DNA of 64,000 nucleotides from Cytophagales bacterium (GTDB taxonomy: Bacteria > Bacteroidota > Bacteroidia > Cytophagales > 172606-1). The notes under the pieces are model-generated. The model was given only the letters and a program-made list of their open reading frames with translations, did no database searches and had not been told where the DNA came from. Positions 26,468-47,219 of this stretch are shown here, piece after piece (the first letter of the stretch is position 1; every line of letters begins with the position of its first letter). Both the position numbers and the translations under genes were made by a program. The stretch is taken from contig JAUJMU010000001.1 of assembly GCA_030446715.1 (NCBI GenBank), forward strand, positions 659,297 through 723,296, given 5' to 3'.

Positions 26468-26525
26468 TGGTGCGTTTTTTACCCAAATTTATCCCTTACC
26501 TTTATTCTCTGCGTAACTCCTGCAT

Positions 26526-26676
26526 TATACTGCGGTACATTTTCCCTTTCTGCGTTTTGGAGAACCTCACCCCGGCCCCTCTCCTGGGGAGAGGGGAGAT
26601 GGTCGCGTTGTGGCTCCCCCTCTCCTCAGGAGAGGGGCCGGGGGTGAGGTTCAGGATAGGAATGTACCGTAGTATA
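26526..26676. mobile_element. MITE-like palindromic element, copy A, with 9-bp target duplication
   Basis: The ends are TATACTGCGGTACATT on the left and AATGTACCGTAGTATA on the right, inverted repeats of 16 bases with one difference. Inside are AACCTCACCCC and GGGGTGAGGTT, which pair over two further stems of CCCCTCTCC/GGAGAGGGG, so the whole unit can fold as a T-shaped hairpin. The exact 9-mer CTCCTGCAT occurs immediately on both sides (26517-26525 and 26677-26685), as expected for a target-site duplication. There is no coding capacity. A second full copy in opposite orientation lies at 47054-47210. Confidence 0.88.
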
Positions 26677-26772
26677 CTCCTGCATATAACCATTCTGGTA
26701 CAACCTCATTTGTCAGTACACCTGCTGCCACCTTCCAACCCTGCCCCTTACGACTGGCGACTTACGACTATT

Positions 26773-46950: not shown

Positions 46951-47053
46951 GGGCAGGTAAATGGCTGGCCGAATATACGGGATTGGAAAATTTTTCGGTA
47001 AAGAAGCAAGCCCGGCCTTTGGGCAGCCAGGCATTGCAAGTTGACTCTAAATC

Positions 47054-47210
47054 TATACTACGGTACATTCTTCTGATAAACCTCACCCCCCAGCCCCCTC
47101 TCCTCATGAGAGGGGGAGCCACAACGCCGTTTTTCTCCCCTCTCCCGAGGAGAGGGGTCGGGGGTGAGGTTCAGGGAAAACACAAAAACGGACCAATGTA
47201 CCGTAGTATA
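47054..47210. mobile_element. MITE-like palindromic element, copy B, with 9-bp target duplication
   Basis: Ends TATACTACGGTACATT and AATGTACCGTAGTATA are perfect 16-bp inverted repeats. The inner stems AACCTCACCCCC/GGGGGTGAGGTT and CCCCTCTCC/GGAGAGGGG are as in copy A, and the centre GAGCCACAACGC is the reverse complement of copy A's GCGTTGTGGCTC, so this copy lies in the opposite orientation. The exact 9-mer CTCTAAATC stands on both sides (47045-47053 and 47211-47219), the sign of a second insertion at a different target. Confidence 0.88.
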
Positions 47211-47219
47211 CTCTAAATC

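Follow-up and report, generated by a model that had tools for sequence, protein, structure and literature searches.

Structure of the element and of its inverted relative

A short stretch of intergenic DNA with perfect inverted ends, flanked on both sides by the same 9-mer, raises the question whether it is a mobile element, which enzyme could have moved it and what its palindromic interior represents. The stretch, here called copy B, is a 157-bp element at positions 47054-47210 of the window (the whole 64,000 nucleotides that were analysed). Re-reading of the sequence showed perfect 16-bp terminal inverted repeats (TIRs; left TATACTACGGTACATT, right AATGTACCGTAGTATA, 100% complementary), bordered on both sides by the 9-bp duplication CTCTAAATC, exactly as the original prediction had described them. 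The parts of copy B and the position of its relative, copy A, are listed below.

26517..26525, no strand: copy A left target-site duplication CTCCTGCAT
26526..26676, minus strand: copy A, 151 bp, inverted relative of copy B
26677..26685, no strand: copy A right target-site duplication CTCCTGCAT
47045..47053, no strand: copy B left target-site duplication CTCTAAATC
47054..47069, plus strand: copy B left TIR TATACTACGGTACATT
47070..47080, plus strand: copy B short arm, 11 nt, constant across measurable copies
47081..47169, plus strand: copy B cargo, the palindrome CCTCACCCC...GGGGTGAGG, which also occurs on its own in the genome and within a different MITE family
47116..47127, plus strand: copy B asymmetric marker GAGCCACAACGC, gives the orientation
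47170..47194, plus strand: copy B long arm, 25 nt (23-25 in most copies)
47195..47210, minus strand: copy B right TIR, perfect complement of the left
47211..47219, no strand: copy B right target-site duplication CTCTAAATC

Copy B contains no transposase gene, and the open reading frames that cross it are chance frames only. Rfam and tRNA scans returned no hits.

Copy A has one mismatch in its left end. The marker GAGCCACAACGC was found on the plus strand in copy B (47116-47127) and on the minus strand in copy A (26605-26616), which confirmed that the two cores are inverted relative to each other; 2 exact matches to the marker and 4 with ≤1 mismatch were found, against 0.39 expected. After oppositely oriented copies had been reversed, all 11 copies that could be measured had a short arm of 11 nt, while the long arm was 23-25 nt in 9 copies, 12 nt in two 146-bp copies and truncated in one. 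The order of the short and the long arm was thus kept in further copies, and orientation can be assigned from the linker lengths as had been proposed. Neither random flank lengths nor a lack of shared ends, the outcomes that had been named as contrary evidence, was found genome-wide.

Copy number, duplications and target context

The genome that contains the window comprises 6.43 Mb in 25 contigs and is 98% complete. At ≤2 mismatches the whole genome yielded 52 TIR sites, whereas the pattern reversed as a control yielded 1; the 52 sites form at least 23 paired copies. When 391 genomes of the order were scanned for the TIR, only this genome and one congener rose above noise. A Cyclobacteriaceae MAG contained 84 TIR sites.

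Target duplications were surveyed in 51 elements from three genomes, 23 of them the own-genome pairs and 28 from other genomes. The 9-bp duplication was exact in 39 of the 51 elements and had ≤1 mismatch in 43, whereas lengths of 7, 8, 10, 11 and 12 bp gave at most one exact case each. Chance, earlier judged an unlikely explanation, is excluded both by the TIR count and by these exact duplications. From 43 usable targets we derived the palindromic consensus TTAT-[G/A...C/T, 9 bp]-ATAA, in which the strongest columns lie immediately outside the duplication. Copies A and B had been regarded as two independent insertions at unrelated targets; their independence held, but the targets share the palindromic TTAT-N9-ATAA context. 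We concluded that the data support copy B as an independent, oppositely oriented insertion with its own 9-bp target duplication.

The duplications in the window's genome are partly eroded (12/23 exact), and those in the MAG are nearly all exact. One 102-bp MITE is present in the MAG in thirteen copies at separate sites, 12 of which have exact and differing duplications; these copies show recent movement. An empty orthologous site was sought in genomes of the same genus but could not be shown, as their intergenic DNA is too diverged to be aligned between species.

Two irregular copies were also noted. At L002:1477-1660 (G000:C13:288944) a copy without the right TIR is bordered by a direct repeat of ~25 bp (TTTATGAAGGCTATATACTTTCTCC, one mismatch) instead of 9 bp, and at L022:1501-1532 (G000:C18:442494-442525) a 221-bp copy ends on one side in a tandem pair of left TIRs.

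Full-length insertion sequences with the same ends

An exact TIR scan of GTDB contigs yielded three full-length insertion sequences (IS) with 9-bp duplications and the same 14-bp ends. The 14-bp sequence TATACTACGGTACA, common to both ends of this parent IS, lies within the left TIR of copy B.

L201 and L219, Botryobacter ruber: 1190 bp, duplications GAATTTTTA and GAACAAAAT
L220, Cyclobacteriaceae MAG: 1213 bp, disrupted, duplication ATCGAGCAC

Both B. ruber copies contain a single 371-aa ORF with its stop codon inside the right TIR; the bases that form the right TIR of copy B encode the ...NVP-stop of the transposase in the parent IS. Two copies of the IS are present in the MAG; they differ by 3 substitutions, their reading frames contain stops, and only one has a matching duplication. 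As both are disrupted, the enzyme that was active in the MAG was not seen.

The IS transposase matched DDE_Tnp_1 (E 6e-17), and by far its best model was NCBIfam IS4_2 (NF033591, E 7e-39). The NF033591 score of 134 bits is below the curated cut-off of 152 bits, which is an annotation threshold and lies outside the published hallmarks of the IS4 family, all the hallmarks themselves being present. The family is defined by the YREK signature Y-(2)-R-(3)-E-(6)-K together with DDE, by duplications of ~10 bp (7-13) and by a gene without frameshift (PMC2266710). In the translation of L201 we read the YREK motif as Y-GY-R-YRI-E-6aa-K (YGYRYRIETMFKHLK), and the duplication length (9 bp) and the unshifted single ORF agree with the family. 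On sequence grounds the parent element is classified as an IS4-family insertion sequence with a DDE transposase. A structure search with the transposase sequence matched no solved structure.

Copy B has the features by which a MITE is recognised: it is 157 bp long (below ~600 bp), has TIRs and no transposase gene, shares its ends with autonomous relatives (L201, L219, L220), and belongs to a family with a duplication of fixed length and many copies at unrelated sites. With great confidence we regard copy B as a MITE that an IS4-family DDE transposase moved in trans. Such an enzyme would recognise both TIRs in trans, excise the element by cut-and-paste, by analogy with the IS4 family (PMC2266710), and join it to a TTAT-N9-ATAA target that had been cut with a stagger of 9 bp; repair of the gaps would then leave the two copies of CTCTAAATC. 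The palindromic repeat between the TIRs would be a separate passenger carried by the shell.

Remains of the insertion sequence in the window's genome

A transposase search of the window's own genome detected a C-terminal fragment (residues 295-361, 60% identical) at C7:164169-164369, with an alignment score of 209 against ≤41 for 200 shuffles. A solo TIR at C7:164132 lies directly next to the fragment (combined span C7:164132-164369); like that of the intact IS, the reading frame of the fragment runs into the TIR and closes there with NVP-stop. The congener (G002, L059) carries a similar fragment. We concluded from these TIR-joined fragments that the IS was once present in the lineage and has since decayed. 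No intact TIR pair of IS size was found in the assembly at ≤3 mismatches, and the PF01609 loci of the genome, inspected together with their end repeats, were other IS elements, none with these ends. As no intact IS was found in an assembly that is 98% complete, mobilisation here is either historical or its source was not assembled. With the source IS decayed, the copies of this genome would no longer be moving, and copy B is probably an older insertion that is now immobile.

Shells with interchangeable interiors

The interior of the shells varies between and within genomes. In the window's genome it consists of CCTCACCCC...GGGGTGAGG palindromes, of 221-bp composites built from them or of a CACAAAGG...CTTTGTGGC palindrome; congener shells hold GGCGCGGAAG hairpins and those of the MAG GTGGGCTGTG/CGGTTTGTG hairpins. 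The CCTCACCCC palindrome also stands free in the window's genome, where nine of the sites read lack TIRs, and it lies within shells of a second MITE family whose ends are GGTTCCTGGAGAC and whose duplications measure 8 bp. Because the same cargo occurs in such different settings, cargo and shell evolve partly independently; the cargo may insert itself or may be captured.

These findings bear on two other explanations of copy B. The unit could be a hairpin repeat, REP/BIME-like or DUF559-associated, whose palindrome is what spreads, TIRs and duplications being incidental to it. The CCTCACCCC core is indeed strongly palindromic, with a folding z of -9 to -11, and in addition to its TIR-free occurrences it brackets a DUF559 gene. 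However, at least three unrelated cargos, among them CACAAAGG...CTTTGTGGC, GTGGGCTGTG...CGGTTTGTG and GGCGCGGAAG, occur in shells whose duplication begins precisely where the TIR ends, and this also holds where the whole IS is the cargo. Thus the core does not define the moving unit. We regard this explanation as very improbable, and a REP-like repeat was rejected as the origin since the duplications sit at the TIR edge; the CCTCACCCC core may nevertheless have a mobility of its own.

The hairpin could also be a functional RNA or terminator conserved for gene regulation, dispersed long ago by a route other than transposition. Both strands fold far better than shuffles, and copy B is intergenic, the likely start of a gene for a D-Ala-D-Ala dipeptidase-like protein following ~95 bp downstream. 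Against this stand the lack of an Rfam family, identical copies at unrelated sites, 9-bp duplications at nearly all copies and a full-length IS with identical ends. This explanation, too, is very improbable, and the duplications rule out a regulatory RNA as the origin, though single copies may later have gained a regulatory role.

The DUF559 case was found in leuS. At L058:2877-6428 (G000:C10:42876-46427, minus strand) a leucyl-tRNA synthetase of 1183 aa contains, in frame, a DUF559 domain (residues 338-444, E 2.7e-34); the CCTCACCCC palindromes on its two sides are translated as LTPGPSPEERG... and ...PLSSGEGLGVR. The domain is apparently a mobile insertion tolerated in an essential gene. The system with GGTTCCTGGAGAC ends is of ISL3 type and is represented by L164 (G000:C4:597194-598470) and L165 (G000:C10:317579-318864); L165 carries an ISL3-family transposase ORF, and the interior of L164 has no ORF of ≥100 aa left.

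We tentatively propose, with slightly more doubt than confidence, that the IS4-type (9-bp) and the ISL3-type (8-bp) systems, unrelated but present in one genome, independently carry one self-standing hairpin passenger, which also flanks a DUF559 nuclease-like gene and would colonise MITE shells and be shed by hairpin-promoted deletion, so that MITE interiors would turn over separately from their ends. Literature searches on the core sequence, on DUF559 palindromes and on IS4 MITEs in Cytophagales returned nothing relevant.

Bare palindromes and apparent loss of the interior

GGTACAT was present on both sides of the cargo in 9/9 relatives of the 221-bp type examined, and a deletion between its two copies would leave a 28-bp palindrome. 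Such a palindrome was found at C18:886596, two bases different from the prediction and with the duplication ATCTCCCGT. When AAGTCTTCAGGAA and AAGTCTCCAGGAA of the ISL3-type L166 are taken as the end points of a deletion, the predicted product is identical to the 38-bp element of L172. There (L172:539-576, G000:C7:129138) the bare 38-bp palindrome GGTTCCTGGAGACTTATAGGGAAAAGTCTCCAGGAACC has the 8-bp duplication ATAAAGCG on both sides. A second minimal remnant of the TIR family was noted at L057:2265 (G000:C4:82264), where exact 9-bp repeats GTGCTGGTC enclose an insertion of 22 bp, TATACTACGCTACATTAGTACA.

In some shells the cargo has apparently been lost, so that bare palindromes of 28 or 38 bp remain. 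A deletion running from one short direct repeat to the other at the hairpin base would remove the passenger, and the bare palindromes appear to fit slippage at this position. The order may also have been the opposite, a bare shell having gained its cargo.

Comparison with known systems

The parent IS resembles the IS10 subgroup of the IS4 family (IS10R, ISAba1; PMC2266710) in its single transposase ORF, DDE domain, YREK motif, 9-bp duplication and length of ~1.2 kb, and plasmid-borne ISAba1-family transposases align over 89% of its protein, though with only ~30% identity. It differs in the marked TTAT-N9-ATAA target context outside the duplication and in its ends, which begin with TATAC, whereas those of the IS10 subgroup begin with CT (PMC2266710). 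As the initial CT is lacking, we did not file it as a member of this subgroup.

The ISL3-family IS and MITEs of the same genome parallel the family of copy B, with an IS of 1286 bp (L165), shells with CCTCACCCC cargo and a bare palindrome, but their ends and transposase family are unrelated and their duplications are 8 bp long.

A MITE family in Bacteroidota is hereby identified together with its motor, its target rule and its decay products. A close likeness to copy B is found in MITEAba12 and ISAba12 (PMC6382973), in which a MITE of ~113 bp shares only its 16-bp TIRs with the parent IS; 9-bp duplications were described there as well, and movement in trans was proposed. As a single locus copy B is ordinary, and only the exchangeable palindromic interiors are unusual. 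MITEAba12, in contrast, has ends of the type GGCTTTGTTGC..., a length of 111-114 bp and one interior, without interchangeable palindromic cargos. In the family described here the interiors are not what remains of a parent IS but exchangeable palindromes, an example relevant to the origin of MITE interiors.
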